NCBI GenBank assembly: GCA_022539475.1
Contig: VCMS01000204.1
Span: 111,367-175,366, forward strand
Reading direction: 5' to 3'
DNA length: 64,000 nucleotides
Source of the DNA: Gracilaria domingensis
Lineage: Eukaryota > Rhodophyta > Florideophyceae > Gracilariales > Gracilariaceae
Part shown: piece after piece, positions 749 through 52,753 of the stretch
Numbering within the stretch: the stretch's first letter is position 1
Layout of the letters: every line of letters starts with the position of its first letter
Translations under genes and position numbers: made by a program
The notes under the pieces: model-generated
What the model was told of the DNA's origin: nothing
What the model saw: only the letters and a program-made list of their open reading frames with translations
The model's database searches: none

Positions 749-1532
749 TGAATCGAACGAAGGTGCGATACAACCGCCTGTATCGGTAGTGATCACTGTG
801 CGCTAGACGGTTCTTGCGCAGGAAAAAGTTGAAAGAGTGTTGGAGTTCGATGCCCCCGAAAGTTTATTGAGGAGGGTGTGAGAGTGACTTTAGTACACTC
901 GAGTGATTCCCAATCGGGAAACAGAACTAAACTAGGCTAGGTAATGACACGCCACCCAGAACGGTATGCTAGTCTGGGTGGCATTGTGCCCCTCGAACTG
1001 CGTGGGTGTCGCTACGCAGAATCACCGCTGATTCATCAGCTGAAGTAGATATTCTATCTACTACACTCACCTAGTAATGGTCGTCGCGTGAATAATGCTA
1101 TTGTTACGAATTCAAGGAGATCAAATCGTCATTTAAGTCTTTGGTGGCTCCCGAGCGTCTCTCTGTTGTCGCAACAAAACCCATTGAGGTAGGAGAGGAA
1201 ATATTTATGGACTACGGAAATCCGTATGACTAGGCGAGATCTCTTTCACATAATTCGTAGTCTTCATAGTCTCTTCAAGTAATACTTGGCATTGTAAATG
1301 AATCTATGTGTCTTTTGTATCTTATATAAACAGCTCGTAGGAAGAGTGAAGTTCGGACTAGTTTCATTTTGGCCATAGGTTGGTCACGTGGAAACATGAC
1401 ATAAAACTAGTCCAAAATAAGAGGTGCTAAACCGATTCATGGTGGGTTCTCTTCCGTTTCTCTCTGAGAGCTTCAAGCAGCAACGCCTGCCCTAAACCAA
1501 GACATCTTCTACTTGCCAAGCTACACGAAGAC
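749..1532 (-). other. Probable leader/LTR of the Gag-bearing element; no gene
   Basis: No convincing coding frame lies here. Read on the minus strand it sits immediately upstream of the Gag start, carries an AATAAA signal (plus-strand TTTATT at 863-868), a 10-bp perfect hairpin (951-960 with 973-982) and a short palindrome around 1,046-1,064. These fit a 5' LTR and leader, but the partner LTR is outside the window, so the boundaries cannot be set. Confidence 0.35.
951..982. repeat. Perfect 10-bp stem-loop in the leader/LTR
   Basis: GCCACCCAGA at 951-960 pairs exactly with TCTGGGTGGC at 973-982 around a 12-nt loop. It lies in the transcript leader of the Gag element if that reading is right. 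The role is unknown; packaging or dimerisation signals of retroelements often look like this. Confidence 0.6.
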
Positions 1533-3443
1533 ATGGTTACAGGAAAAGGTAAAAGGCCTTCTTCTTCTTCTCCTAGAAGTGCATTGAACCGCCTAAAACC
1601 TTCTGGGGTAGAGCGCATATCGAAACGAATACAGAGAGGTTGACAATCTCGGCAAGGAAGCTTTGCGAAAAAGCCACAAAAGGGACACATCGTAGTCGGA
1701 CAGCACCTCGCGAAGGGCTACCACGAAACGAGACTTCGAGCCTCCGACAACCGAAAGAAGTGACAGCAAGCTCGACAATCGGGAAGTCATAGACCCCGGA
1801 CAACCAAAAAGTACTGTGGAGGTGGACATAGAAATTTCTGGGGCACCCAACGATCTTGTAGGAGAGATAAAACCGTCCTCTGCGAGGGCACAAGTCTCCG
1901 AAAGGAATTGTACCCAGAATAATATACAAAGTCAAAGTAGAAGCAAAACAACCCCTGTTGCCGAAGGTGGTAGTGCAAGCGATAGGGAGAGACCCGGGAG
2001 AAGGAGGAAACTGACGCTAACTGGACCGGTGCGCAATCGTTCACCACCCTGAGTCTGTCGTGCCCTTGGAGAACAACATAACGTACGGACCGCAAGCCCA
2101 GTAGCGACCGTTCCACAGAGATTTCCGCTCGTTCAAGGTATCCATGGAGAAGGGGAAGAAGATGTTATCGGCGAAGTTGAGATTGAGAGGGGAATAGAAA
2201 TAGACTCTGGAAGAAGAGGGAACGAAATGGAACAGAAGAGCAGTGCGGAACAGATCGAGCTGGTGCATACGCTGAAGATACAACTACAGGAAAATGAATC
2301 CGCGAAAATGATGGCTGGAATATCTATGAAGTATGCGAAGGAGCAGAAGAAAAACCTCGAACGAAAGCTTCAAGACAGGGACTTAATAAATGAGAGTCCT
2401 CGTGGTGTCATAAACGTGAGAATAGAGAAGGTCACTGGTGTGAAGGAGCCAGAGAAAAGTGGTCGAAAGAAGTTGACTATCTCTGTTGAGATGAAATTAA
2501 GGGAGTTGCTCGGGGCGTATACCAAAATATGACGCAGTACGCGAAGAGGGAGACATGTGAGCTCGTTTTCGAAGAGAAAATTACTGAAAGAAACTGGAGG
2601 AATCGATCTGAATATCTATCCACTGATGCTTCGGAAGGCATAATAACGGAACGTGATAGTGGAAAAGTTTCGTGCCTAAATCGCCTGTCCAGCTTTTAGA
2701 TGGTCTTGGAGTGTACACACCCTCATTTTCAGGAGGTACAAGTGAGCTACTGAAGCACCTTGTCCATTTAGAATTGAAGCAAGTGATGTGGGACGGTATA
2801 AGAAGTTGTTGCTGGGAAGAGGGGTGTATAACGGAGGTTTGCACGGGCCTGTGTCTGCAACAGAGAATGAGTCAGACAATGAGTGATGTGGTAGGAATGA
2901 GAAAGAGAAATGCGAGCGAGAAGCTATTCTTTTTGCTCGGGTACGATCTTTTCTGGGGAAGGTCGAAAAGTACGACGGAGGACACCGAGGACCTGAAGAA
3001 ACAAGTGGAAGAGGCGCAAACAAAACTGTGGAAGAAAGACTCAATGGTTCTGCGGACACTTCCTGGTAGCGTAAGGCAACGTTAAGTGTTTGATGTACTC
3101 TGAACATAGTGCATCTTCACAGGACCTCGGAGGTGATGAACAGGATGAGTTGTTTGTGAACTCTGTTGAATTACAAGTTCTACAGGAGTTCAGAGGTTAT
3201 GACGTCAAAGACGAAGACGGCACACAAGTGGATGGTACAATACGTCTGTTTGCACGTCTAGATGCATGGGTATGCTCGGTGGTAAAGCTCTTGGAAACAG
3301 GGTCGGGGCGAGGCGGTCAACGTCAGAGAGAATTTAGTAAGGCTTTTGGAGAGATATTACCTGCCTTCATGGAACAACTACTCTATATCGCCTACAACCA
3401 TGTCGAGGAAAGACACAGCGTCGAACTCACAAACTATGGCTGA
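1533..3443 (+). pseudogene. Unrecognised frameshifted gene with basic N-terminus and coiled coil
   Basis: Successive plus-strand frames abut each other and read as one broken protein. It starts at an ATG at 1,533 with a Lys/Ser/Pro-rich basic leader, passes through a frameshift near 1,640, and continues in frames covering 1,796-2,052, 2,104-2,532, 2,530-2,700 and 2,940-3,070. It ends in a frame at 3,090-3,443 that closes with a well-formed helical segment (FSKAFGEILPAFMEQLLYIA). The 2,227-2,400 part is rich in Glu, Lys, Gln and Leu and looks like a coiled coil. I do not recognise the family. It converges on the transposase pseudogene at 3,725-6,668, so it could be the accessory gene of the same DNA transposon. 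At least four frame breaks make it non-functional as it stands. Confidence 0.4.
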
Positions 3444-3724
3444 GAACATTATGAATGGAGTGGTGTTGGGCGCAATGGTGTGCTGGAAGCCACAGTTGGA
3501 ATAAGAATGCCTTCCAGTGAAAAGTTTGTTCTGGTGTTGAAGGATGCGATTTTTTAATGACAATATGAGCGGTCGCCTTGGTCCTTTTCTTGACTGCTTC
3601 ATCGCCGAATGTGAGGAACAAGACATGAAGTTTCATAAGATTACATGCAAAATGAACACCAGTACTGAACTTGTGGAGCAGGATGGATGTGAGTGACAGG
3701 GTATGTCGTATAGTGATGTACTTG

Positions 3725-6668
3725 TTACGAAGCATTATGTTCTATAAAGCTACTTCTTTGTTGGTTCACGGTAGAAACAATTAACCTAGACACGGTGACC
3801 ATACCAGTGCGATGGATCTCGAAAGGGTCTGGCTGGATAATTAGAAAGAACGGCATGAAAGGTACCCAGAACAGCTGGTAGCGTTGTCCATCCATATCAT
3901 GGAGCAGTGTTTTGCACGCTTCTCGATCTGGAGACAGTAGCAATTGCCGGTGAGGTATGGTCCAATTCGTCATCAGTAGCCGATCGGAAGAGCACGCACA
4001 GAAGTACTCTGACTATGTTTGTAACGGGTGAAACCACCTCAAAGTATCGCATGAAAGCAAATTCCCTGGGTATGTGAGGGTGCGACTTTGAAGATATTCT
4101 AACAAGTACTACCGTCTGAGCAAACCATACTGACTCAGTACCTGATGCGTTTTCATCGTTCCCTTTTACCATAATGCGTGAGAACTTTGGAGTTCGCAAG
4201 GGCCCAAATGCTGGGCACGCAAAAACCCCCTGCTCTATTATGAACTTCTGCTCTGTCAAGGTGATGTTGTTTGTCACTTCTTCGTAGCCATGGAGAGTTT
4301 GAGGTACGGCTCCAATTATACAAGCAGACTTCACAAAGGAGAGAGTTGTATCTTTCATGACGTATTCTCTATTTTTTCTGAGAGCACTTCTTTCGTAAGA
4401 TTCACGAACGGTGTGATTCCTGTCTATCTGATTTGAGATAGTGCGGCTACTGTTTCTGAGCTGAACCGTTTTACAATGACGTTCGATAGAACGAAGTCGA
4501 ACGTGTCTGACGCTGATGATAATATAGATTCGCATTCAATGATATCATCGAGCTCGATATTGATCCCATCTCGGGACATTCTAGGAAATGTCTTTGGTGG
4601 CATGATTCGAGATGAAATGTTCTGGCGTGCGTGGAATACTTCTCTCCACTGCTTCTGTCGCTCTCGATGTTTAATGGATTTAATTGTCTCTGCGACCACT
4701 GAGTTGGTTCGACGAGATCTGAATACTTGGTGAACACGGTTGTAATGGGTACTTTCTCAGCTTCCCCGCCACATATGTCAAAAAAGGCCCCAATAAAAAG
4801 GAAGACCATATCTAACGCTTTGTAGTCCTTCGCTTCAAGCATACCTCTTAGACCAGCTTTTGTGACTATACCGTTTAGAGACTTTCCCTTCTCTTTTGTT
4901 GAAAAGTCGATAGTAAGCCCCGGTGCAGGGGCGTCCCTCCGGATAGGTGCAAGTATACAGATGGAATGGTTGAGGACAAGGGTTCGAATGGTCTTAAAAG
5001 TTCGAGGGGAACCTGATACAGCAGTGGTAAACAGCGACTCTGACTGTAGTCCCTCCCTGGCCGCTGTTTTTGAAAGCTTGGAAACGCCGAGGTTAAGGTT
5101 GTGAAGGTTTACGAAACAGAACAGACTGTACGGTGTAAGGCTTGGTATCCAATTCAGAGTGGGATACACTTCTAGAAAGGAATTAACATGCGAAAGCGAC
5201 TGTGACTGCAATAGAGCTTGTCCCTGGAGCTTTCTTTCTCTCGATTACCGAGTACGGCCGTTCTGGGCATCCTATTCGGACTTGGTAAGAAGAGATGAAT
5301 ATGCTGCTCGAACATCCTTGGTGTGGCTCAAGCTGCGGTCTGCTGCTCCACTGGGGATTGGATTTTGTAGTTTTTCTCTTGGTATCAAGCAAAGATGGCA
5401 TAGAAGTTTAGTGAGGGTGCCATGTGAGACAGAGAGTATATCCTTGGCCTCTAGGATATCGGCGCAATAACTTGCAAGAATAGGATTGCATACACGTCTT
5501 GTTTCATCTGCCGATGTGAACGGTATTCCGCACTTCCAGAGCTGGGGTAGAGGCTTCAAAATAAGCCGCAGAGACTGGGCTAGAACTTGCATTCTTGCTT
5601 CTCGAAAGGAAGCCGAAGGCACAGAAGGCATTCCATCAAACGAAGATTCGCTTCGTACCTCCTTTAGTTCTGTTGCCATGTAGGCAACAATAGTCAACTC
5701 CTCGGAGATACTCTTCTGGCGGAGTGTATCTGAGAGTTTGAGCAGGCTTAAGTGAAGAGGATAGGAGGAAACGGGAGATTGCTTCAAAGAGGTAGAAGAT
5801 TTATCAGTGTAAGGTTGTAGTAGACCAGCAAATGACTCAATTCCGCTTTCTCCGATTCTATATCACACATGCTCAACATCGGAGGAGTCCATGACATGAG
5901 AGATAAGATAGCGGTATACGCCTCTTGCCAGGCGGGCGGTCATGGGGTGTGAAAGAGTACCATGCGGGAAGCACCCGACCTGTGGTGGCTGGAAGAAAGT
6001 GTTCTCAGAGTTGGCAAGTCTGAGTTGTAGCAACAAGACGTTCAATGGGTCCTTGGAGTAGAGTTTGGCTCGGAACGTAACCGTCTGCGGTGGTAACGAA
6101 GCGCTCCTCAAACCAGTCTGCAGTGACGTATTTTTGAGATATGGAGTGCTTCAGCTCCGTGCAAGGCTTGGAGGAAGTAATTGTTTCATTGAACCTCTCT
6201 TGGGAGAAAAGAGGATTACGAAGAAGGGATATGAGCTCGTCCGCAGCCCTATGGCCTAGGTTCGACAGAACAGAGGCAAGACAGACCATGAGTTGGTCCG
6301 TGTGTAGCTCTTGCAACGAGCTTTCGGTTAGAGGCAGAGAGGGGGAAGATGCAAAAGTATTTGTGATAGTGAGCCAGGAGGCTGGGAATCAGTGGGAAGA
6401 ACGGGTATGTTGGGACTGGTTTCGTGCTTCGATAGCTGTGGAAGGGTTGAAAAGAGGCGCATCGTCGGTACGAGAGTCTGAAGGGGACGTTGATGATGGA
6501 GGCAGGGGGATATGGGTGGCTTTCTGACGCTTGGAGCTTCGTACTTCTGGTTCGGGTGAGGGAGCTTGCCGTCTCTGTGAAAGTCGTCGTTGGGGGCAGT
6601 TGGCGATGTGCTGGCGCAGAGACAGAATGCTCCTTGCCCTGTAAGGGCATCCTGGGGTGCTGCATCAT
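3725..6668 (-). pseudogene. Plavaka/CACTA-like transposase, copy 1 (decayed)
   Basis: The minus-strand frames align with the better copy at 24,327. The N-terminus (about 6,590-6,665) carries a zinc-finger-like C-x4-C-x12-H-x3-C with the shared core LSLRQH. It is followed by a Ser/Pro linker, then the conserved block NLGHRAADELISLLR (about 6,230). The central block at 5,272-5,787 has YPLHLSLLKLSD, the EAR-MQVL helix and NPILASYCADILEAKDIL, with the downstream CHLC pair. The C-terminal half (5,211-4,471, then 4,535-3,725) holds TIDFSTKEKGKSLNG and a long hydrophobic tail. This order (zinc finger, RNase H-fold core ending in a Cys pair) matches Plavaka-type transposases of the CACTA/EnSpm group. 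At least four frameshifts, and stops directly upstream of the zinc finger, show it is dead. Assignment to Plavaka rather than another CACTA branch is inference. Confidence 0.65.
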
Positions 6669-7562
6669 TAAGTCATGACCTGGTTTGCTTGGAAGAAAAG
6701 AGAAGAAGGAAGGGAGCCGCTCGTCAAGGAGAAAGGAGGAGTTTGTTGCCGAGTTGGTGAAAGAGAAAGTGAAGGGTGAGAATCGGAGAGGCAGTTGGCA
6801 GGAATTAATGCGTGTGCCAGTGCGGGGTTCATGGAGCATGCCGTGGAAAGGTAACCACGATGCTGTGCGTTCAAATTCAAAAACATGGCTGTGAGAAAGG
6901 TTTAAAATTTTCATTCAAGAGGTGTACAGATACTAAAGAAAGACGGGAGATCGACGGCGACTGTCTGTTTGAGCGATTCCCCTGCATCACTGTCTCGTCG
7001 TCCTTCTGGTGCTTCTCCGCCTGAGGGTTCGTTTTCTGATCGTGAGCAAGGGTTGTTCATGCGGTGTGTTTTTGTGAATGCGGGGAGGGGTCGAATTGAG
7101 GCTCCGTGAGATGTACATAGTAAGTGCTGCGACCTGTTCGAGCGTCGTATTGACTTGATTCTTGATGACTAACGTTGGTTTTGTCTCTCTGGTCGTGCAG
7201 AGAGTGTAGGTGTTGGGTTTGTTAGGGTTTGAGGTACTTTGAGAGAGAGAGTGAAGAACTTTTGTTGCTTTGTATAACGAGGGGGTCACCAACTGCAGCG
7301 ATTTCTGCTTTCTTTTGTACAGGTTTGGCAGATTTGTCTCCGGAGAATAGTGTTGTCTCACCAGATGTTCCTCAATCTAGGTAGCAACTAACAACTGGAG
7401 TTTCTGGTTTTCCTTTCGCTATGCATTCAGCAGACTCGGGCTGTGAGGATAGTACGTGTCCTGCCACACTTTTTCTCGGTCAACGAGGTAGTCATTCTAC
7501 TTGGCAGTATGACCACTTTGTTTAGTGCGAAAATGTGCCGCATGATGCCTCTGCTATTCTTC
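6669..7562. other. No gene seen; sequence 5' of transposase copy 1
   Basis: Short frames exist on both strands but none has domain content or codon-like composition. It may be the 5' untranslated or subterminal part of the transposon holding transposase copy 1. Confidence 0.5.
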
Positions 7563-8330
7563 CGCTTCATTTTCCTGTTGGCGGCGAGCTGCGTACTAAC
7601 TAAGTTTTTTTCCTTTGCTTTGGTTTTGGTTCATAACGATCTGGAGTGGTGCGTGGGAAGAGGGTGTGTGAAGCTGATGTTTTGTTAGGCGCTGCGTGAG
7701 GCTTGGGAATGCTGACTGGTGTTTATGTTGTTTTCACTATTGCGTGGAGAATCTAGATGGTTGCCTGGTGCGGTTGTATGGGTAAGTGTTATATTCTTTG
7801 GCTTCGTTTTCCTGTTGGCGGCGAGATGCGTCCTAACTAAGTTTTTTCCCTTTGCTTTGGTTTCGGTTCATAAAGAGCTGGAGTGGTGCGTGGGAAGAGG
7901 GTGTGTGATGCTGATGTTTTGTTGCGCGCTGCGTGAGGCTTGGGAATGCTGAGTGGTGTTTACGTTGTTCTCAGAAGTCTAGATGGTAGCCTGGTGCGAA
8001 TGTATGGGTAAGTGTAATATTCTTTCGCGTCCTTTTCCTGTTGGCGTCCTGATGCGTACTAACTAATTCTTTTTCCCTTTGCTTTGGTTTCGGTACATAA
8101 GGATCTAGAGTGGTGCGTAGGAAGACGGTGCGTGAAGCTGATGTTTTTCTGGGCGCTGCGTGAGGCTTGGGAATGCTGACTGGTGTTTATGTTGTTGTCA
8201 CTATTGCGTACAGAAGTCTAGATGGTGGCTTGGCGTGGTTGTACGGGTAAATGCTAACTGTTTTTGAGGCTTCGGCTGATGAAAAGTATCTGACGAAGTT
8301 TTTTCTCTCTGTTCTGTTTTGGTTCTGTGT
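7563..8330. repeat. Tandem repeat, ~227-237-bp period, about 3.3 copies
   Basis: The phrase TTTTCCTGTTGGCG starts units near 7,567, 7,805 and 8,034, and GCTTGGGAATGCTGA recurs at 7,701, 7,938 and 8,165, giving steps of 237 and 227 bp. A degenerate part-unit continues to about 8,330. Each unit also repeats the stretch around GAGTGGTGCGT. Two overlapping short plus-strand frames inside the first two units (7,443-7,688 and 7,719-7,952) are a by-product of the repeat. No function is evident. Confidence 0.85.
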
Positions 8331-8613
8331 TGATGTTTGATGTGAAGGGTGTTGCCTTGGTTTGCATGGTGGCGGTTGCGATTTATGCGGGTCGCGACAA
8401 GTTAGGCTATCCGGCGTACTGTTTCAGAGAACTCTGGAAGGCACGGCGTATCGCCCCTCCTACGAGTAGCGACAAGCCGTGCAGTCCAGAGTACTTTGTA
8501 TAAGCGTATACCGTTGCACGCATCGTGCGGGTGCTGGGAAGGGTATGAGATGCTACGATTGCAATGTGCGAGCGTAGATTAGATTGGAATAGGATATAGA
8601 ATAGGCCCATATG

Positions 8614-9057
8614 AACTAATACTAAAGAGCACGATTGACAGCAGAAGAGGCCGTAAACTAGCGACACTGGAAAAACGCACTAGTCATAACTACGGGCTAT
8701 GCTAGAAGAAATTAGGGGCTAAACTAGCAAGAAAGGAAAACGAGGCAGTTAAAACTGCATGTCTAAACTAGCGGAGAGGTAATAGGGGCTAGGATAGCAT
8801 CCATACGTAAACTAGCAAAGATGTAATACATAGTAGTTCACCATGCACGCGCCAACTAACACAGATATAAAAGAGCGTAGTTTATCATGCAGGGGCCAAC
8901 TAGCACAGTTGTAATAGCTGCAAGTAAAATTTTCACAAAAACTCTAGAGGAACAGGAGCAGCATCTAGCTGTTTTGTAACAGGAGAAACAGAGAATTTTT
9001 GAAAAATTGACTAGCGGACCAGGTGCAAAGTCTAGCGGAAAAGGCGCATGAACTAGC
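8614..9057. repeat. 22-bp-phased array of CTAG-centred motifs (44-bp degenerate units)
   Basis: ACTAGC or a one- or two-base variant starts at 8,657, 8,679, 8,701, 8,723, 8,767, 8,788, 8,811, 8,855, 8,899, 8,943, 8,964, 9,010, 9,031 and 9,052. All fall within one base of a 22-bp grid. ACTAAT at 8,614 also fits. The sequence between them is a degenerate 44-bp repeat with AACTAGC near its start and a weaker site in mid-unit. Such phasing puts every site on the same DNA face. Subterminal transposase-binding arrays of CACTA elements look like this, but no terminal inverted repeat could be tied to it. Confidence 0.85.
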
Positions 9058-9727
9058 GTTCCAGGAACACTGACGTAGTCAAGAAGTAACAGAAGAGTGA
9101 CGATGAGGTCGCCTCAGGAGTACAAGGTTTAGCTAAGTATGAAATTGTTGGCTCCAGTCGGCTTGTGAGGCGAGCAGATTGGAGGAGTGGCAGAATAGAT
9201 GGTGGAGGGATGCTCACGGAGTAAAGATGTTGCGGCAGCAGAAGCGTAGTGAGGCCAATGAAATAAAAAGATCCCAGCGTTGGAGGTGCTACGGCAAAAG
9301 GGCAGCAAGGCTGGTATAGTAAAGTAGTAGCTAAAATTAAAAAGGAGGCGCACAGACGAAAGCCGTGTGGCAAGGACCCACAACGTTTCGCCTGAGATTT
9401 CGCATAAGATGCACAAATGGCTGTGTGAATACAGATACGAACAGAGTGGTGCCTGTGACGCAGCATATGTTTCGAAGGCGCGATGGTGGTCATGCGTTTT
9501 ACGGCGTCGCTCTGATGAGTAAATGTGGCATTGAGTACGATACTATGATTGAGATGGGGCAGGGGTAGTTTGGAAATGGTGATTGGAACAGCGGCGATTA
9601 TGGTTTCAAGAAGCGGAAGAAGCCGTAAGTTTGGTTGCTCGCATCGCAGATTTGATCTGAGACATGAGCGCACGAAGCAAAATCTTGCTTTCTCTTATGA
9701 AGAAATGTGTTTCGAAATTGACAACCG
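9058..9727. other. No supported gene between the CTAG array and the Copia LTR
   Basis: A 206-codon minus-strand frame (9,053-9,673) spans it but has no recognisable domain and begins inside the phased array. I see nothing else definite. Confidence 0.5.
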
Positions 9728-9826: not shown

Positions 9827-11136
9827 TTGTGGTCCACACGCGCCACTAGCACAACTCAACTCCCCCATACCCGCACAGCCTGCAACAATCCAACCACGAC
9901 GGAAACGTACAACCGTCTCACCCGACGCCTCTGTCTGGAACCTCGACAAGAAACCGACGAACTAACCAAAGAGCTATACGCAAATGCAATCATAACACCC
10001 GACGACCACCACACCCCAATCGACAGGACACAACACCACACAATGCAGAAACAAACCGATAAAAAATCGCAGAACCACCTCCTACGTCTTAGCCCGAATA
10101 AGTACTTCTACTGGGAGTTCTCCATACGAAACCAAGTTCGAAAAATCTGAGCCTCTATTCCCCTTATATCCAATCCAACAGCCCCAGTAGATCCCGTAGG
10201 ACTCAGCGACTTCGAAGACAAACAGAGCACACTTCTCAACGCCATTTTCTGCAGTGTCCCAGCCACGATCCTCGGTCAAATATTCCAGCCCGGCGATGAC
10301 CCTACACCATTCGAACTCTACTAAAAATTCATCAACTAAATCAACCGCAACACCGAACAAGACCACGACTTCTTGAAAACTGAAGCTGAAAGCATCCTGT
10401 TCGATGAAGAAACTAAGCTCTATGATTACGTCAAGTCACACCGAGAAGTCAGAGAACGGATGCTTGCCACCGGCTTACCGAAGATCAAGGAAGAAAAAAA
10501 ACGGTAACATTCCTCATCGACGGCCCCAAATCCAATCCGGTACTCACAAATATTGCATTCCACTTCCTGATCAAAAAGCGTACCTCCATCCAGGAGTTGT
10601 ATAGTCGCTTCAAAGGGCTCTATAATTACAGCAAACGCATTCAGTGTCTCACATCCCAACGCTTTCCATCCTTCATCGGGGACTACGGACGCCCCGGTTC
10701 TTCTCGAGGATATTACTGTCAACTCTTTAGAGACAAACCATGCCAGCATCACCATCAAGAGAGAATTCGCCCGCAACATACGAATGCAGACGGCAGAAAC
10801 CCGGCCCACCCCAAGAACCGTCCCCCGAGCGCCAACTATGCTCAATTGAACTACCCGGCACTACCCCCCGCTCACCCTCCAGGCTTCAACCAGGTCCCTC
10901 CACGGCCGCCACCGGTAGATTTAACCTCGGAACCTGATACCGAAGCCATCGGTAAGTTCCTTCTGGACAGCGGCGCCAACCCGTCTCACATCACACATCC
11001 AACCTCAACCATTAAACCGCTAACACACATCACCTATAACCACACGGCGACCAAGCAGCCGAGCAGGTGCACGCCCCATGGCACCCTGCACATCCGGCCT
11101 CACAGGACTAACCAGTCCTACGCACCTACGCAGTAG
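9827..11136 (+). pseudogene. Copia Gag and aspartic protease region
   Basis: The Gag part reads from about 9,827 in one frame to about 10,490, with a TGA at about 10,150 and further stops. It then shifts by one base in a run of eight A residues near 10,490 and stays open in the new frame to 11,136. Gag landmarks are the aromatic segment NKYFYWEFSIRNQV and the helical part TPFELYKKF-like region around 10,310. The protease active-site motif DSGA is at 10,966-10,977 within FLLDSGANPSHI. A Cys/His-rich stretch (YYCQLFRDKPCQHHH, near 10,720) may be a degenerate zinc knuckle. The proline-rich linker between the knuckle region and the protease is typical of the family. The frame breaks make it non-functional. 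Confidence 0.7.
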
Positions 11137-12300
11137 CCGATGCCAACTCAAGCATAACCTGCTGTCAGTTCACGATCTAGCTCATCGCTACTGCTTCATC
11201 ACCTTCACAGCAGACAAACGGCAAATCTACAACACCAAAGTCAACCCTTCCCACCTACTGGCAACAGCACCGTGGACCAGATCCAAGTATGAACTCAGCG
11301 GCAAAATACAAACTTCTCCAATGGCCCTGGCATCAGGTACAATGCCGAGTAAACCCTCTAAGCACACAGATTCCAGAACACATCCACACTCGCCTCCGAC
11401 ACCCCCCCACACCACCCAATCTCAAAAAATACCGATCAACCAGTCCAAACCCCGACCATCATGACCCGTATCCATCCAAAACCTCCATAATCCGGTACCC
11501 CCCTGCCTTACGCACGAAACTTCAGACACAAACTCACGCGTGGCACCTCAAACTTAACCACGCAAACCCCGAGAAACTAGCCCTCACCGCGAAACACAAA
11601 CTTCTTCCCACCATGACACACACTCTACCACACGACACCCACCTCACATGTTCGGCCTGCAAACAGGCCAAAACGCAGCCAGAGACACACATTTCCAAAC
11701 AGCACGAATACCTCGTCGGAGCTTACATCAGCTCCGACACATGTGGTCCAATTAAGCTCACATCCACTAACGCCAACAACCATGTACTCATCCTAATCTG
11801 CGCCAGCAGCAAATTTGCTTCCACCCAATTCATCCGTGACTGCAAGGATATCCCACAGCATATAAAACAAACTCTATATCATACAGCCCACCGAATGCAC
11901 CATCCAGTATCAGAATTCCGAACCGATAACGTTAAAAAGTACACATCGAAACACATCAAAACGATCTACGACAAATACCATCTCAAGCACCACCTCCGAA
12001 CTCCTCACCAACCCCAGGAGAATTCGATCGCAGAGCGATACAATCGCCTTCTCATGGAAAAACGTTCGCGCACGGCTCACCGCTGCACATCTAACAGACA
12101 CCTTCTGGGAAGATGCAGCACGCGGTACAGTATTCACGTACAATCTACTGTATCACACCAACATCAGAACCTCCCCTTACAACAATTGGTACGGCCAGAC
12201 ACCAACTATTTCTCGCATTTACAACTTTTGTGAACTTGGAACCATCCTAATCTATGCACCGAGAAATAAGCTCCAACCGAGAGACCAACCCGTCAGATAC
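11137..12300 (+). pseudogene. Copia integrase
   Basis: The GAG-pre-integrase zinc-binding part shows WHLKLNHAN followed by CSAC (11,649-11,660). The catalytic triad is recognisable: Asp in SSDTCGP (11,736), Asp in FRTDNVKKY (11,935) and Glu in PQENSIAERYN (12,018). A frameshift near 12,065 moves the frame for the C-terminal part, which then reads FWEDAARGTVFTYNLL and SPYNNWYGQTPT, both typical of Copia integrases just before the RT. All three catalytic residues survive, although the reading frame does not. Confidence 0.8.
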
Positions 12301-22235: not shown

Positions 22236-22670
22236 AACGTCTGTCTCTTGCAGATGCTAGTTTTTGGCGAGGGTCGTCCAGAAATTGGCAAGGGTCGTCC
22301 AGTAAATTTTTTGAAAAAATATCGAGATCAATTATTTCAAAATTTGCAGATAATTGCTTGGGTCGTCCAGAATCTCTGTGCAGTAAATACTGGGGGGTTT
22401 TCCACTCGTGCTAGTTATTTAGTCGAGGGCTACCTGAACCGTATTTCGCGAAGTCTAGGTTCAGTTTCCATTAAGGTGCACATTACACGATACCTTCTGC
22501 GGAATGATACCCTGCAACGCATGGAATACTAGTGCTAGTACAGATGATGCCCATTATGAAATCATACCGTTTTATTCGTATCTATTCTTCTATCGACCGC
22601 TTTTGCTAACCACTACTTCGCTATATTACATGTACCATTTCCCCATAATGGAGCGGGTGTAGGCGCAATC

Positions 22671-22820
22671 TGCGGCAGATGCCGCAGACTGCACCTCCAC
22701 CATAGTGCTGGATCGGTAGAACACATACGCACTCCGAGAGGATGAGGCGCGAAGCGCCTCATCCTCTCCGTTCCTCATGTAGGGAACCATGCCCAGATGC
22801 ATGGTTCCCTACTTGAGGAA
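22671..22820. repeat. Three consecutive hairpins
   Basis: TCTGCGGCA/TGCCGCAGA (22,671-22,690) is followed by a perfect 15-bp stem with a GAA loop (22,736-22,768). A 22-bp stem with one mismatch and a 6-nt loop comes next (22,771-22,820, TTCCTCATG... with ...TTGAGGAA). The same three structures recur near 52,170-52,330 in the other arm. Purpose unknown; possibly an end or recombination site of a transposon. Confidence 0.8.
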
Positions 22821-23941: not shown

Positions 23942-24326
23942 AAAACGTACGACGGAGCGGAGTATAACGCGATGATATCAATGGCATGGCTCACGACGGT
24001 AACGGAAGTTCGGACGTCGGAGGCGCGGCGGCGGCGGCGAAGGGATTAGATTTATTTTTCTGTGCGAGATTGGACAAGTGTACAGCGTACAACGTTGGGA
24101 AACCACAGGTTTATAACCAGTGGTAGATAATACGAGAAGTACACCCTTGTGTTGAGGTCGACGTGTACCTACGTTCCTTTTTGAACGAAAGCACGTGATT
24201 TAAACTCAAAATATATTCTCCGTTCTGAGCAACACGTCGATATTGACTGTCGCTCGACCTCCTTCTCCCTTCGGACTCCCTTCCCTTGCAGTCTTTGTCG
24301 TCGTTTCTCGTTCATTTCTTCTTCCC

Positions 24327-26290
24327 ATGGTCTACTACTGTACACATAAGAAGCGTGGGTGCCCCTTCGTTACTCGCCGAGGAGTCTTATCTCTTCAACA
24401 GCATGTCAACCATTGCCCGTTTCGTCTGAAAGCAGCGCTGGAAGACGACAATAGCCGGCCCATTCGGAGAAGCAAGCGTCTCAAGCTTTCCGCGCCCGCG
24501 CCCGCATCTTCCGAAACGGTCACTGCCCTTTGTCGCCTTCCCGAGCCTCCAGTGTCCGAGGACATCGTCGACCCCACTCCGTGCGCCCCTCCCATTCCGG
24601 ACACTTCGCATTGTGTTTCTCCTTCCCCGGGTCCCGTGGCATTAGAGCGAGAACACGGAAGCAGTTCCCGCCCAGTGCCTTCTGAGGAGGCCCTTGGTGA
24701 TTTGCATATGGATTATCTCACGGTTTGTCTGGCTTCAGTAGCTTCCAACCTTGGTCATCGTGAGGCGGACGAGCTAATTGGGCTACTTCGGGACCCGCGA
24801 TTCTCGCAAAAGCGATTCAACGAGACCATAACCAGTTCCAAGCGCTGTACAGAACTGAAGAACGCCATTTTCGAACGATACGCCTCAAAGGACGGTTTCA
24901 ATCGCAGAACTGTCTCGCCAGAAGGATGTAAGTTCAGCGCCACCCTCTACACGAGAGACCCCGTTCAGACACTTGTGAAACAGCTCCAGTTGGCTAACAA
25001 CGAAAACACATTCTTCCACCCTATACCTCAGACCCACTCCACGAAAATATCTCACCCCATGTCCGGCTCTCTCGCAAGAGACGACACCTCAAAACTTAAG
25101 GAAATGGTCATGGGCTCTTTGGATAGTAGAATAGTGTGGTACTCCCAAGAAATAAGTTACAGTGAATCTTTCGTAGGTCTTCTGCAGGTATACACCGATA
25201 AGTCTTCAACAACTCTAAAGCAAACATCGGTTACCGCCTATCCTCTTCACCTCATATTTCCCAACTTCTCCGACGAGCTTCGCCGTAAGTGTATCCGTGA
25301 TGACCTCACAGTAGTGGCATACTTCCCTACCACACTGATCGAGGTTTCCGCATCTGAAGCAGGCGCAATGCCATTTGTTTCTAGCAAGTCTCTAGGCGAG
25401 TCCAGGATGCAAATCCTTCAAGAATCTCTCCGCCAAGTCCTGGAGCCCATTCTAAATCTCACGCAGAAAGGTTTTCAGTTCATCGTGGAAGACAAACTAA
25501 GTCGAGTGTGCCATCCTCTGCTTGCAAGTTATTGTGCGGATATTCCTGAGGCTAAGGACATTCTGTCTATTCTTCATGGGACCAAAACGGAAAGCCCGTG
25601 TCATAGATGCAAAGCCCCTCGCTCATCTTTATGCAGTCCTATTCCCACCTCATTCAACGGACGTTCTCAAAAGCAAACGAAAAGTATCCGAAAGGCACAC
25701 ACAGCTATCCTACAACATGCACAAAAAGACGAGGCGGAAAGACGTCCCCGTCGTGCGAAAGGATATCTCAGGCGGATACTCTCAAGCGTTCTGATTACAT
25801 ATCTCATATTCTGTCGTTCATCGAAACCCTCTCTCGAAACCCTCTTGACCGTAGGATTGATCCAGAGGTTGTTTTTATGCAGTCTGTTGGAAACAATGAG
25901 ACCTCTATTCGAAAAGTTACGCAACTTGCATCTCGGCATATTGAAGCTGATTAATACTCCAGTAATCGAGAACCTGTAGTCAGAGCCTCTAATCCCTGCA
26001 ATAGAATCATCCGCGTCACGTTCATCTCAAACGATACGTACTCAAATCCGCAACTTTACAAACGCTAATCTGTCCCCCATGCATTGCAACTTTTCTCCCA
26101 GAGGTTTACATATAGAATTTTCCACGCCGAAGAAAGGCAGGTCACTGAATGAAACCATCACCGAGGCAGATCGCCTTTGAATGATGGAGGCCAAAGCATA
26201 CAAAGACCTTGACATGGTTTTCCTTTCATGAAGGAATTCTTTGAAATCTGACGGGGAGCGCACGACAGGGCCCCAATCAGAACAATTTTC
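24327..26290 (+). pseudogene. Plavaka/CACTA-like transposase, copy 2 (best preserved)
   Basis: The frame runs 550 codons from the ATG at 24,327 (MVYYC) to a TAG at 25,977. It continues in the same phase past that stop to TGA codons at 26,178 and 26,228. Residues 5-30 form a zinc-finger-like C-x6-C-x13-H-x3-C with LSLQQH. A Ser/Pro-rich linker with KRLK basic residues follows to about residue 125. Then come NLGHREADELIGLLR and the catalytic-type strand LQVYTDKSSTTL with YPLHLIFPNFSD. The helix ESRMQILQESLRQVLEPI and the block LSRVCHPLLASYCADIPEAK follow, ending in the Cys pair CHRCKAPR. The end matches copy 1 through IEFSTPKKGRSLN and DLDMVFLS. It resembles Plavaka transposases; catalytic residues beyond the first Asp are not certain. 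The three stops make it inactive. Confidence 0.7.
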
Positions 26291-27612
26291 TCTCAGTACT
26301 CGGACGTCGCTTTGACTAATTATAGGTGCAATCGTGGCGCATGATGTAATAAAAGTTCTATTTCGTCTCTTCGGTGGCAGATTGGAGCCTTTAAACGCTC
26401 CTCGACAAAGTCGTGGGCAGCAATTCATAGCTCTGGAAGTGGGACTCTGAAGTTTTATCACGGCTCTTAACGGAAGAAAAACGAACACCATTGGCAGCAT
26501 TTTACGGTATCTCCACAACACGTCGATTAATATCTTCTTGTGTATTGTTGGTGACAGGCCTTGTTAACGGGAGGTAGAGCGATACGATTTCAACATTGGA
26601 ACTATTGTCATGTGGTACCAGCTCAAGCACGCCGGGCTGAAGGATTTTCATGCCTACCATCTGTTTTGCTTTCCGCTACGACTCTCGTCGCCCCCTTGTT
26701 TCATACACTTTTGTAATGAATGAATGTAGCACATACGAGCTGCTACAGCCCCCGTTCTCTAATCCTGTGAGACTCATGTAGTAGTTAGCCTATCAGAACT
26801 CCATATAGTTATTTATAGTATTCCGTAGAGAGCTCTCTTACCCCTATAAATACGGTATTCTATGGTCGTTGCCGGCCTCCATCGTTGTTTGCCAGACCGT
26901 CACAACGAACGAATTAAATTCAGATATATACATTGAACGCCAGAGCGAGAGCGCTCATGCTATTAGGTAATACCTTACCTTCATCATCAAAACCGATGAT
27001 CGATAGAATTTGTATCTTCACCGGAAAAAATGGTGGCCAGTATTTACGTAGCTACATACTGCCGTCACTCTGTGTCTCTGTATTTCAACCCGGCGCATTA
27101 CCGCTTTCGTGCGTGCGGGTGTTGACGGGCTTCCATGGTACGTCTCTTCGCCGCTTTCAGCAGTTTAAACAGTGTATTCTGTCAATAACTACACAAATTG
27201 TACCAAGGTCGCGTATTGTGTTAATAGTTGAGGATCAATTGGATGCAAAAATTAGTTGATTCTTCTCTGATAGATTTATACTGAGCTCGCAACAAATTAT
27301 TTGCGAGAAATGCAGCCGATTGTGTTTCGGGAGGTGTGGGAACGCTACAACATGCCTCAAAATGTTTCTGTTGGAGAGGGGTTTTAGTGAACGTAGACTT
27401 ATGCGAGCAATCGTAGCGCTCTCCAGTCGTGCGTTTTGAAGCGCTCCTAATACTCAAGATACACCCTGATGAACGTACAGCTTTCTGCCCTCCCGCCAAT
27501 CCACGTGGACAGCGGCGCAACGTGTTGGCGGGCGGGGGCATCGTACTGAGTGCGGGAAGTGTCGAAGAAGGTGTTCTGGGAGGTCTCGGCATGGTGCCAA
27601 AATGTGACCACA
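26291..27612. other. No supported gene
   Basis: It may hold the decayed 3' end of transposase copy 2 up to about 26,700. After that only short frames appear. The same stretch in the other arm is at 47,220-48,400. Confidence 0.5.
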
Positions 27613-28055
27613 ACGTGCCCACGGGCGCGGGGGGGGGGTCGGTTGTGTTAGGGTGGCTACCCTAACACAACCGGACCCCCCTGTCCGCGGCCACGTTTTG
27701 GCCGGTTTTTTAAAAAATGTGCTTTTTTATGCCCGCGGACGGGGGGGTCAGGTTGTGTTAGGGTAGCTACCCTAACACGACCGGACCCCCCCACCCGCGG
27801 GCACATTTCGGCCGATTTTTTGAAAAATGTGCGATTTTATGCCCGCGGGCGGGGGGGTCCGGTCGTGTTAGGGTAGCTACCCTAACACAACCGGACCCCC
27901 CCGCCCGCGGGCACGTTTTTGCCTCGTTCTGGTAGCGTCAACAGACCTCCCAAAACACGCAACGCAGGCAACGCCAGCCAAAACGTAACGTGCCCGCGGG
28001 CAGGGTAGTCAAGTTGTGTTAAGGTAGCGACCGTAACACAACTTGTCCTCGCCCG
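27613..28055. repeat. Array of four long palindromes with TTAGGG/CCCTAA apex
   Basis: Palindromes lie at 27,613-27,696, 27,730-27,802, 27,840-27,913 and 27,991-28,055, with centres about 110, 110 and 150 bp apart. The core of units 2 and 3 is GTTAGGGTAGCTACCCTAAC, a perfect 20-bp palindrome. It is extended outward by ACA(A/C)CCGG, a run of seven C (or G) and CCCGCGGGCA. Whole stems are about 36 bp with almost no loop. Linkers are T- and A-rich with the shared GGCC(G/A)(A/G)TTTTTT. The fourth unit is diverged (TTAAGG/CCGTAA). The other arm has four counterparts at 46,727-47,215. Such DNA can extrude as a cruciform. No known family fits. Confidence 0.9.
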
Positions 28056-33053: not shown

Positions 33054-33979
33054 GAAGGACTGCGGAGATCAGCACCTGAGTCGGCAGCGGCGATCACCGC
33101 CAATAGTCAGCCAGAGGAGGCGTGGCGAGACGCCTCCGCGGTATGCGGTCCAAATGCCAGCATTTGCTAGGATTGGAAGAATGGTTGACCAACTGCAATT
33201 CGAATGTTTTGCCATTCGTAGTACATCTTACAGTATATTCAAATGCGTTTAAAATAAAAAAATGCTTACGCCGGTCAAAGCAGTGGATGCATTCCAATGG
33301 AAATGGTGCTTCACCATTCATACTTGCGAAACCATTTGAATAAACATATTGGATTATCAGTCAAACCATTCAAAGCATTCAAATAGAAACCATTTTTTGG
33401 CAGCGGCTTGTGGCTGCGTTGATAGCACTGCCATCACCGCAGCCACAAGCCGGCAGTGGTCGCGCCGGACGCGGTGCGCCGTTGAGGCGGCCCGTATGTG
33501 TAGCGAAGGCGAGACGTGCTGCCTTACGGGGTGGCCCCTATGTAGTGCACGGCACTGAATTGAAGCAAGTATGCGCTCGTGCGCTCCGTTCAATCCCTCC
33601 ACGGAGCAGCGCACGCAGCTTAAAGGTGAGCGCTCCCACCGCCGTGCCGTGTGCGCCGCGCCCCGCGAATTGTGGTTATTCTGATGACGCGCGACGGCGG
33701 TATTATTAGTATGGGCATTCGAGGCATTGAAATGATTTTGCATTATAAGGATATATCATTCAGATGAAGAATGCACTCAAATAGTTTGCGGGCCACACTA
33801 TTCAATGTAAGGAATCCAGTCGATTGTATTGTAGCGCTCATCCCTTGTTCAGTATGGACCATTCCAATGGTTCTGAAAGAGCGTTATTCAAATGGAGAAG
33901 ACCATTTTAATGAGTGCTGCTTCATAGTATTCCGTTGTTTTAATTAGTCAAGGAATCTTAGTTTCCAATTGCTAGAAAT
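33054..33979. promoter_or_regulatory. Upstream region of the Myb gene with repeated ATTCAAATG-type motifs
   Basis: No gene. AT-rich blocks at about 33,160-33,400 and 33,700-33,920 contain many variants of CATTC(A/C)AATG and its complement, for example CCATTCCAATGG near 33,860, ATTCAAATGG near 33,890 and ACCATTTGAATA near 33,332. Between them lies a GC-rich core (33,405-33,690) that opens with a 14-bp perfect hairpin. A promoter or a small insertion element are both possible. Confidence 0.4.
33405..33451. repeat. Perfect 14-bp hairpin
   Basis: GGCTTGTGGCTGCG (33,405-33,418) pairs with CGCAGCCACAAGCC (33,438-33,451), loop 19 nt. It lies at the left border of the GC-rich core upstream of the Myb gene. 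Confidence 0.85.
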
Positions 33980-34097
33980 NNNNNNNNNNNNNNNNNNNNN
34001 NNNNNNNNNNNNNNNNNNNNNNNNNNNNNNNNNNNNNNNNNNNNNNNNNNNNNNNNNNNNNNNNNNNNNNNNNNNNNNNNNNNNNNNNNNNNNNNNN
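33980..34097. other. Assembly gap, 118 N
   Basis: A run of 118 undetermined bases within the left arm. Frames that cross it are not meaningful. Confidence 1.
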
Positions 34098-35410
34098 GAG
34101 GCGAGGGAGAGGGGAACGTGGTGATGAGGTAGAAAGGGGGTAGAATTGGAGTGGGAGGGGGTCTGCAAGAAGAGAAGGGGTGCTGGTGCATCTGAGTCAG
34201 TTAGAGGTTGGAGACTCACAGATCGAGAGTGGGGCGGGAGAGGGTGACAGGGAGATGCGTTTGTGGGGAAATTGAAGGCGAGGGTGGGGGATGTTGGGGT
34301 TGGTGATGAAGGGAGCAACTGGACGATGAATTGTGGAGATTGTAACGGAAATGTGGCGGTGTGGTGCTGAGTGGGGGTGGTAGTGGTGTTTCGGTTGAGG
34401 CGATTTCGAGCTTGCGGATTTCGTTGTCGGTATTTGGGAGTGGGATGAGAAATCATGTGTGAGTGGTATGGAGTGTGCGGATAGGGAGGTTTGGGAGAGG
34501 TGCGGGAGGAGAATAGGGTTCTGACGAAGTTGGACGTGCTGGAGAAGGAGGGTGAAGGAGCTGTGCAAGAGGCAAAGATTGGTGGAAGAGGAAGGGTGAC
34601 AGGAGGTCGTGGAGGGAAAGACGGAAAGGGAGTGTGGGGAAGGGTGGGAGTGCAGGAAGGGGTTCCTGTGACACCCTGAAGACAAAAAGGGTGTGGGGGT
34701 GTGGGGATGGGAAGAGCCGTCTGAAGAAGAGGCGTAGGAGAGTGAAGAAGGTGGGTGGAGCTGGAGGCGCACGGTGCGGAGGGGGTGGGAGCTACCGGTG
34801 GTGACCTGGGTTTAAGGAGTGCGGCGGAGGTAGCGCGCGGACTGGCCGAAGGGGAATTTCTGAGTGGGACAGGAGGAGAGGAAAGCGAGTGGGAGGGATT
34901 TGAAAGCCGTTTTGGGGGCGGAGCGGGTCATAGAGGCGAGAAGGGGAGGAGCTTGGTGGCCACGCTGACTTTCTACAAAAAGTGACGCGTGATGGGCGAG
35001 GAAAATGGGTAGGAGATAGACGGGGGTGGTGTGGACTTGGGAAGAAGTCGATGGGATGATTGAAGGTGGGATGACAGTTGCGATTTGGACATTGCACATG
35101 GGAGTAATTGAAGACGCAAACTAAGCACGAGTGCAGTTTTGAGTAGAGGGCGCGGGAAAAGAGTGAATGGGGTGGCGGCGAAGTATTAAGAACCTCTACA
35201 ACAACTAGGGGACTGCCCAAGCGAGTAAACCTGGCGCGAAACTGGAATTTAATATTCAATTTCTTACTTGTTTTGAGTGCCCGCCTCTGCTAGCGGGCTG
35301 GGGGGTGTGTAACCCGTGGCTGCGCGTGGGCCCAAATAGGCCTCGCCACAACTAGCTTAGTTTCCAACAACAGCGAACAGGACTGATATTCGATTTCACT
35401 TTGCAGAAAC
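34098..35410. other. Purine-rich inner end of the left arm; no gene
   Basis: From 34,098 to about 35,000 the plus strand is very rich in G and A, so the minus strand gives only Ser/Pro/His-rich low-complexity frames. The outer part (about 34,870-35,410) matches 38,618-39,130 in reverse complement. The part nearest the gap does not match the other arm. Confidence 0.55.
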
Positions 35411-38400: not shown

Positions 38401-38617
38401 CGGACTGGGTGTTGTGTGCCACGTGGAGGTGGAATGACTAGTGCACTTTTTTCAGTAATTGGGAATTATTTTAGCTTGTCTTAATTTTAAAAACACTCTG
38501 AAGTGGGATTGCGTACGTGTAATAACTCTCCGCACGAGTGTGCACGTAACTAGCTGTAATCAGCAGAACCGACTATGCAGTCTTGGATCTCTTTGTGGGT
38601 GCAATTCTCATCGTCTG
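35411..38617. other. Unique spacer between the arms; no firm gene
   Basis: The sequence has no counterpart in the window. Minus-strand frames at 36,780-36,211, 36,422-35,988 and 36,051-35,692 are Ser/Pro/Arg-rich and could be a small disordered protein or chance. A run of 15 T lies at 35,599-35,613. From about 37,430 to 38,500 the DNA is AT-rich with no frame of note. Confidence 0.4.
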
Positions 38618-50690: not shown

Positions 50691-52753
50691 CGACGACAAA
50701 ACTTCAAGGAAGCGTCGTCCGAAGGGAGAAGGAGTCGAGGACAGTCAAGCATCGACGTTCATGCTGAGAACGCAGAATATATTTGAGTTAAATCACGGTT
50801 TCGTTCAAAAAGGAAACGTAGGACACGTCGATCCTCAACACAAGGTGTACTTCTCGTAATATCTACCACTGGTTATAAACCTTGCGCTTTTCCAACGTGT
50901 AAGCGTACACCTGTTCCAATACTCGCAAAGAAAAAAATTCTTCCTTCCCGCCGCCGCCCCCGCCCCGACGTCCGACCTCTTCCGTCACCTCTGATCCGCG
51001 CCATCCACATCCTCGTTATACCACGCTCTCCTTCTTTTTCCTCCCTCTATCTTTATGGAGGCTCCTTAAAGTAGAGCGGAAAAAAAGAAGGAACGAGTCA
51101 TCCGTATCTCACGGATGTATCCGCTGCATCTTATTCGAACGTGCTTCCATATCTCTCCACGTATCTTTGCCTAAAACTAACCAATCCTCACCACGTTTCT
51201 TCCGCTCTCGACATGCAAAACGCAGAAATAAGCAATCACCCTTCAACTTCTTCTATTGCCTCAAGATATAGAACGAGTTTGTAGGGTGTTAAAACGGAAC
51301 CTGAAACCCAAAGCACGCAACTTAAGATACGCGACCCAAGTTCATTCGTTGCCCAAGCTCTAGTTCCCTCTGCCGACTTTTCAAAATAGCGCAAGACGCG
51401 AGAAGCTAAGCCTATAGCGCAACAAAACCAAGGTTGTTTCTTGGCGGCATCTGGATCTCTGACTGTTCCGGCAAGACGATTCTGTACTTGTGAGGACATA
51501 GGCTGCTCTCGCTTTATCACGCACTCTGCCGTATGTTGCTGCATGCGGCATTCTTGGTGCCGCTTGTGAGTTCTCGCTTCGCACACCATTCTTCGCGCTT
51601 TACGATAATGGGGCTGTAATCAAACCTATCCCTTTCCTCTTCTTCTCCTTTGCGAGTTACTAGGCCTTCGACTTTTCTAGCGCAACGTTCAGTTCGTTCA
51701 TCAATGGTACGTTCATCGCATTTCAAAAACACCCAACGAAGCAAATACTAACTTATGGATACTCCGCGCGTATACAGGTAAACGACCAATTCCATTTCGT
51801 CTCTCAAGATCAGCTGACTTTCGGATAGGCATTCTGCGAGCTTTGATTAACATAAGGCTGCTCTTCGTTTATGGCATCTCGCGCTATGTTGCCGCATGCA
51901 TTCTTGTGTCCTGCATTGTGAGTTCTCGCTTCGACACCTTTCGCGCGTTACGATGATCGTGGACTGCTAATCTAACCGATCCCTATCCTTCTTCTTCTTC
52001 CTTTTGCAGACTAGGTCCCTCGACTTTCTAGCGCAAAAGTTTCGTTTGTTTTATCAAATGTACGTTCCATCGCATTTCAAATGCTATCCAACATCTTTGA
52101 CTAAACTATGAATACTTCTGCTTGCGTATAGAGGTAAACGCGAATTTTGATGCGACGTAGCTCACCGAGTCAGGCACGTCCTCAAGTAGGAACCATGCAT
52201 CTAGGCAGTTCCCTACATGAGAACGGATAGGATGAGGCGCTTCGCGCCTCATCCTCTCGAGGTGCGTATTGTCTACCATACCGCACTATGGCAGTGCCCT
52301 CTGCGCGCATCGCCGCAGATTGCGCCTACACCCGCTTCATCATGGGGAAATGCTATATTAATATAGCGAAGTAGTGGTTAGCCAAAAAACGTGTCGATAA
52401 GAAGAATAATACGAATAAAACGTATTATATTTAATTAATGGGAACATCATCTGTACTAGCAAAACAGTATCCACGTTGCCCAGGTATCATTCGCAGAAGC
52501 GTATCGTGTAATGTGCACCTTAATGGAAACGGAACCTAACTCGCGAAAATACCGCTTCAGGTACCCTCGACCTAAAGAAACTAGCACAGCACGGGTGGGA
52601 AAACCCACCAGTACTTTACGCACAGCGAAGCGACACCCAAGCAATTATCTCAAATTTTAAAAATATACTCGATATTTTCAAAAAAATACTGACGACCCTT
52701 GCACTTCGGAACGACCCTACGCAAAAAACTAGCATCTGCAAGAGACAGACGTT
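50691..52753. repeat. Right-arm copies of the 335-bp blocks and hairpins; no gene
   Basis: It holds the counterpart of the hairpin at 23,900 (near 51,060), two copies of the 335-bp block (about 51,240-51,800 and 51,830-52,140) and the hairpin trio (about 52,170-52,330). Confidence 0.7.

Follow-up and report, generated by a model that had tools for sequence, protein, structure and literature searches.

CTAG sites on a 22-bp grid in the right subterminal region of a Plavaka-type DNA transposon of Gracilaria domingensis

Features of the locus

The window (the whole 64,000-nucleotide stretch of contig VCMS01000204.1 analysed here) contained part of a DNA transposon with an array of CTAG sites at its right terminus, as well as the right end and the transposase gene of a second, high-copy family (Table 1). 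The two families are called F1 (the family of the array) and F5, respectively, and single copies are referred to by their labels (C20, C289, etc.). The array was the right subterminal region of a Plavaka-type DNA transposon of 15-20 kb. A further part of the window copy was present upstream of the window, past a 5.3-kb insertion, and its left end was not found by BLAST against copy C8.

Table 1. Coordinates of the features described in the window.
Feature	Position	Strand	Evidence and remarks
Window part of the F1 transposon copy carrying the array	1075..9075	.	BLAST against copy C8
Decayed F1 Plavaka transposase gene (frameshifts, stops)	4016..6914	-	PF18759, E 1.6e-14 on 5272-5862; tblastn with the C20 frame
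237-bp tandem repeat between array and transposase gene	7555..8253	.	TRF, 2.8 copies, 7555-8200
Imperfect hairpin (35 bp) inward of the array	8425..8498	.	77% complementary, 4 nt between arms
Subterminal array of 13 CTAGs with 22-bp spacing	8655..9058	.	
Block of 44-bp tandem repeats inside the array	8810..8916	.	TRF; unit number varies between copies (alignment)
Right terminal inverted repeat, ending ...GAACACTGACG	9059..9075	.	Last element base 9075
Right end of the high-copy Plavaka family F5	22238..22700	.	Terminus CGTCTGTC; at least 40 copies at 99-100%, itself included
F5 Plavaka transposase with related zinc finger	24204..26458	+	46% identical to the F1 transposase over 647 aa

The first-pass annotation of this DNA had placed a Plavaka transposase 2 kb from the array, and this gene proved to be part of the same element. 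The N-terminal zinc finger of the window transposase (6521-6676) contained two stops. Copy C20 carried an unbroken stop-to-stop transposase frame of 1048 residues (PF18759, E 7.8e-22), starting about 2 kb from the right end and reading inward, with an N-terminal zinc finger of the form C-x4-C-x12-H-x3-C (spacing counted by eye). The C20 element also included an unbroken 1186-residue frame (L020:4998-8555, minus strand) with a DGHHR motif and a weak DGQHR match (E 0.15), for which neither a Pfam family at E 0.1 nor a solved relative at E 10 was found. The C-terminal part of this protein looked, by eye only, like a 2-oxoglutarate/Fe(II) dioxygenase (HxD...H). The scans of reading frames against Pfam revealed no TNPA-like protein.

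The hairpin just inside the array was also found elsewhere, as inverted matches in copies C6, C164 and C257, and the 237-bp tandem repeat was present in all six of the other long copies. Elsewhere in the window, a 110-bp tandem repeat (27632-27918, 2.6 copies) had a unit that seems to contain an inverted repeat. Runs of unknown bases were present at 48.7-49.4 kb and inside 33944-34927; the dip in G+C at 48-50 kb is probably due to such runs.

Position and spacing of the sites at the right terminus

A 501-bp query gave nine further genome matches at eight other places. In eight copies (the window copy and seven others) similarity ended at one and the same base, position 9075 in the window, 19 bp past the last CTAG; the stop fell right after an end resembling GAACACCGACG, and all eight flanks were different. 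The ninth place (C581) was a 57-bp fragment; the sharp common boundary was seen in eight of the nine places. An ordinary satellite with no link to transposon ends, put forward in the first-pass annotation as the finding that would overturn its reading, was not what was found: eight of the nine matching places reached a transposon terminus, and the array was not a head-to-tail array independent of the end of a mobile element.

The terminal 17 bp recurred in inverted form (CGTCGGTGTTC...) at the left end; 16 of the 17 bp matched in C20, where the left end CGTCGGTGTTCTCGG was located, and 15 of the 17 in C289. A search with 1 kb from the left end of C20 returned ten places at 78-100% identity, counting C20, as well as 31 matches of lower identity (69-75%) to the first part of the query. 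Two copies could be read from left to right terminus: C20 (14,849 bp) and C289 (20,247 bp). A 2-bp target duplication was present in three of three end pairs (TA/TA in C20, TG/TG in C289 and TA/TA in C6), the pairing of the C6 ends being putative because they lie 41.8 kb apart. The termini were 5'-CGTC..GACG-3'. Both features taken to mark Plavaka membership, a PF18759 transposase inside the element and terminal inverted repeats with target duplications of 2-3 bp, were thus present, the latter with one putative pairing of ends. The earlier proposal that the sites form a subterminal array in a CACTA-like (Plavaka) transposon was borne out, and the array lies next to the terminus.

Thirteen exact CTAGs were counted in 8614-9057 (139 in the whole window), at positions 8658, 8680, 8702, 8724, 8768, 8789, 8812, 8900, 8944, 8965, 9011, 9032 and 9053, i.e. 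in steps of 22, 22, 22, 44, 21, 23, 88, 44, 21, 46, 21 and 21 bp. The highest number per 444 bp was 13 at the array and 6 anywhere else in the window, and dinucleotide shuffles of 8614-9057 contained 3.7 on average and 10 at most (n=1000). At 22.0 bp the Rayleigh R of the thirteen sites was 0.988, and no value as high occurred when 13 sites were placed at random 5000 times, whether the period was fixed or scanned over 10-60 bp. The 22-bp CTAG grid described in the first-pass annotation is thus real, and its periodicity is far stronger than in random placements. The array stood as described, with a corrected count: instead of fourteen ACTAGC or near variants on the grid, there were 12 with at most one mismatch, and one of these (8913) was off the grid. 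The exact 7-mer AACTAGC, which reads GCTAGTT from the terminus inward, was present at 8656, 8722, 8766, 8810, 8898 and 9051.

A degenerate 44-bp larger unit had also been proposed for the array. A 44-bp tandem repeat was indeed detected (Table 1), but 44-bp units covered only part of the array. The length of the grid is partly due to these tandem units, whose number varied between copies. An ordinary minisatellite, that is, a 44-bp tandem repeat in a transposon end whose grid is a by-product of duplication with no role in binding, would fit the TRF block, the differing unit numbers and the flanks of several site pairs outside the block, which were still alike. The phase was, however, held outside the block: the 11 CTAGs left after dropping its sites gave R = 0.987, and six sites at 20-174 bp from the terminus gave R = 0.964 (2 of 20000 random placements at 22 bp; 13 of 4000 when the period was scanned).

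CTAG triplets spaced at 22 ± 1 bp were found at 15 places genome-wide (77.9 Mb, 680 contigs), and by their coordinates 12 of the 15 lay in right ends of the array's transposon family. At a control spacing of 27 ± 1 bp CTAG triplets were present at 3 places. The raw numbers are not high for a tetramer, since the reversed-pattern control (GATC triplets) gave 23 places at 22 ± 1 bp and 22 at 27 ± 1 bp; it is the contrast in spacing, together with location, that counts.

The suggestion that all sites would face one side of the helix had to be abandoned. R for the window sites was 0.206 at 10.5 bp per turn (0.955 at 11.0), and R for the majority sites of six copies was 0.239 at 10.5 bp per turn. 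A 22-bp step corresponds to a turn of 34 degrees; only the 21-bp steps, e.g. the two steps nearest the terminus, are in helical phase, and only this local phasing was kept.

The sites in other copies and families

Exact GCTAGTT, or its complement, was found ten times in C20 (eight in the right 470 bp, two in the left 250 bp) and six times in C289 (four in the right 300 bp, two in the left 60 bp). All 16 were within 470 bp of a terminus and in one direction, from the terminus inward, and none was present between the end regions of these two copies read end to end; the motif was therefore repeated near both ends and depleted inside. The bare tetramer was spread more widely: of the CTAGs of C20, 12 fell in the right-hand 500 bp and 3 in the left-hand 500 bp, and a further 18 were present in the 13.8 kb separating these regions. 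In the right part of this copy, opposite and weaker matches (AAACTAGG and AAACTACG) occupied two half-step slots of the 44-bp units. The CTAG 20 bp from the terminus was present in seven of eight F1 right ends. The F1 left ends had 3-6 CTAGs in 520 bp and no 22-bp grid; those at 51, 164 and 244 were kept by the majority of copies in two families that resemble each other at about 71%, with the exception of L034 and L035, which were without some of them, and L033, in which they were shifted.

The array of the window copy was the tidiest of the F1 family. Four of its thirteen sites (8680, 8702, 8724 and 8789) were exact CTAGs in the window copy only, the other aligned copies mostly having one-base variants there (CTCG, CTAC, CGAG, CTGG), and C6, C164, C20 and C289 had an off-grid CTAG where the window copy reads CTAA. 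The neatness of the grid is therefore partly due to sites private to this one copy. The nine sites common to the window copy and at least one other copy gave R = 0.987 (0 of 20000 random placements). The majority sites of six copies, 12 including the off-grid one, gave R = 0.805, reached by 0 of 20000 placements at a fixed 22 bp and by 12 of 4000 when 15-30 bp was scanned. R in the seven other copies ranged from 0.60 to 0.96 (C35 having only 2 sites), and in C289 a 17-bp deletion shifted the inner sites off phase.

Purifying selection on the CTAG cores was not seen among six F1 copies, with C257 (similarity lost inside the array) and C35 (130 bp) left out: pairwise differences were 0.091 in the CTAG cores, 0.094 in the remainder and 0.075 in the 7-mer cores. 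This equal conservation is expected of decaying copies, but it gives no support to a role in binding, and it would also fit a minisatellite.

The F5 right end had a CTAG 20 bp in, CCAG at 41, 62 and 130, and CTAG at 174 and 218; the site at 20 was found without being asked for. All six CYAG sites coincided with CTAG positions of C20, gap-free over 218 bp. This register was not matched once when the five sites beyond 26 bp were placed at random 200000 times, under a null which ignores the homology of the ends. Over the first 230 bp, ungapped, F5 and C20 were 52.5% identical (mean 26% at other offsets), with 71% identity in the site cores and 47% outside. Other F1 copies agreed with F5 at 65-77% in the cores and 46-49% outside. 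The window copy, which has a 1-bp deletion, gave lower values (34% ungapped overall, 38% in the cores and 33% outside). Taken alone, the F5 sites gave R = 0.976 at 22 bp (2 of 20000 random placements; 7 of 4000 when scanned). Since the register was kept between families differing at about half of their bases, the comparison suggests that protein-protein spacing, and not the motif alone, may be under constraint. An ordinary minisatellite is unlikely, given that F5 keeps the register at only 47% identity outside the sites and that the motif is also present at the left end and in the ends of other families. The at least 40 F5 copies, counted over the 463 bp of the right end, suggest that this family was recently active.

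Two further families, F3 and F4, were found with a pattern that demanded the site at 20 (CTAG-8N-GAACACMGACG, up to one mismatch), which gave 151 genome matches, compared with 32 for the reversed pattern. Ten F4-type right ends were read: all had the demanded site at 20, four also had one at 41, and none had a 22-bp grid. The grid is thus not needed by all relatives, and it was rejected as a rule for all families with CGTC ends. Among the Plavaka matches listed (at least 123 domain matches in the genome), a domain in the expected direction was present within 6 kb of 32 of 48 F3, 7 of 40 F5, 5 of 56 F4 and 1 of 8 F1 termini, each terminus lying 1.3-4.1 kb upstream of the domain; a wrongly placed domain was within 6 kb of 2 of 152 termini.

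Other termini of related families were also observed. An inverted copy of the F5 right end was present at 52294-52751 of the window (83% identical, many small gaps); 52751 was rejected as the partner end of the F5 copy at 22238, both ends being of the right type and differing by 17%. Another related family was represented at 38612 by a left-type terminus (CGTCTGTGTTCTGCAAGTGG) extending to higher coordinates. At three places (C487:7201/8401, C141:133939/135139 and C480:16986/15789) two terminus types stood about 1200 bp apart in one orientation; these look like one nested composite that was copied, given their common flank at the inner terminus.

Proposed function and comparison with known systems

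The array probably serves as a set of recognition sites for a DNA-binding protein encoded by the element, most likely the transposase acting through its N-terminal zinc finger. The GCTAGTT/CTAG units, beginning 20 bp inside the terminus and following in steps of about 21-22 bp, would be the individual sites. Several protein molecules could occupy neighbouring sites of the right end and so label it, and this end would then be paired with the site-poor left end, directing excision. The row of sites would have grown in F1 by duplication of the 44-bp unit, which would have kept the spacing. The bound proteins may also control transcription of the transposase gene, given that its start lies about 2 kb off and that its reading direction is inward from this end. 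The same arrangement would suit promoter or enhancer sites for a host transcription factor driving the transposase gene, but the inward-oriented motif also occurs in the left end, which in C20 is over 12 kb away from the start of the transposase frame, and the position of the first right-end site is fixed relative to the terminus; a role of this kind is very unlikely.

METHYLTRANSFERASE was linked with Plavaka elements: a PF01555 DNA methyltransferase domain lay inside C289 (E 4.7e-12). It was located at C289:28058-29494 (element positions 10708-12144) and was followed in frame, past one stop, by a weak match to SET (E 0.017, which does not pass the curated cut-off); the stretch was absent from C20. 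Compared with solved structures, the fragment gave weak matches only, the best (E 0.028) being an adenine-specific DNA methyltransferase. Among the matches listed (123 Plavaka and 150 methyltransferase), 40 pairs were within 15 kb of each other, where about 7 are expected by uniform scatter. The methyltransferase was downstream on the opposite strand in 33 of these 40 listed pairs, and in 26 of the 33 at a distance of 5.3-5.8 kb. This linkage raises the question of whether Plavaka elements modify their own DNA. Conceivably, though with very little probability, the array could be an address label written by the element itself, its own N6/N4-type methyltransferase marking the palindromic CTAGs of the ends and the transposase or the other large protein of the element reading the marks; transposition or escape from silencing would then be limited to the element's own family. 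Words beginning with “adenine” are absent from the main text of Kojima 2025 (PMC12730594), in which “6mA” occurs in passages on TET activity. No pairing of an adenine methyltransferase with Plavaka was found among the literature titles listed, which is no proof that it is unpublished.

An anti-silencing array would involve the same genes in a different way, the sites recruiting a chromatin or DNA-modification factor encoded by the element, comparable to VANC, instead of the transposase. The VANC target motifs of the VANDAL transposons of Arabidopsis, as described in PMC5735166, are short, dense and in one orientation, and their arrays grow and spread by tandem duplication, all of which recalls the array studied here; candidate factors in the family would be the PF01555 methyltransferase and weak SET match of C289 and the 1186-residue C20 frame with its weak DGQHR match. 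No VANC-like protein was found in the Pfam scans. VANC sites are described in several noncoding regions of the element (PMC5735166), whereas the exact 7-mers of C20 and C289 were confined to the termini. One site is moreover fixed 20 bp from the end, and C20 keeps the array without the methyltransferase stretch. An anti-silencing role is accordingly held to be improbable, and recognition by the transposase is preferred.

The genome paper on Marasmius oreades describes Plavaka elements as understudied and attributes about half of the DNA elements to Plavaka and KDZ together (PMC8290104). The termini given in Kojima 2025 (PMC12730594) are 5'-TGT..ACA-3' for PlavakaA, with 2-bp target duplications, and 5'-CATCA..TGATG-3' for PlavakaB, with target duplications of 2 or 3 bp. 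The element described here resembles Plavaka in its PF18759 transposase and 2-bp target duplications; it is filed as Plavaka by its transposase domain and without a sublineage, because CGTC..GACG fits neither PlavakaA nor PlavakaB. Such termini may already be in print, as supplementary figures of Plavaka termini are said to exist (PMC12730594, PMC8290104). The words “subterminal” and “zinc finger” are absent from the main text of Kojima 2025 (PMC12730594). No reported binding site for Plavaka transposases was found in the passages of the Plavaka literature consulted, and the array offers a candidate recognition motif for them, with a spacing rule common to two families.

Iteron arrays of plasmid replication origins consist of direct repeats about 22 bp apart to which proteins bind cooperatively. 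Here, in contrast, the array belongs to a cut-and-paste transposon in a 77.9-Mb genome, and no replication initiator was seen. The nearest functional parallel, by analogy, would be the subterminal repeats of CACTA elements. CACTA/EnSpm termini are 5'-CACTA..TAGTG-3', and the subterminal repeats are cis-determinants of excision, recognised by TNPA in maize En/Spm. The soybean element Tgmt*, a CACTA transposon of 20.5 kb, is reported to have 4 repeats in 159 bp on the left and 24 in 732 bp on the right (PMC2613891). The element of Gracilaria shares with the CACTA elements a short motif repeated many times over several hundred bp near the ends, both direct and inverted and lopsided between the two ends, as well as short terminal inverted repeats, short target duplications and a size of about 20 kb. 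It differs from them in its termini (CGTC..GACG instead of CACTA..TAGTG), in its motif, GCTAGTT, set on a 21-22 bp grid common to two families, and in its candidate binding protein, which would be the transposase itself through its zinc finger.
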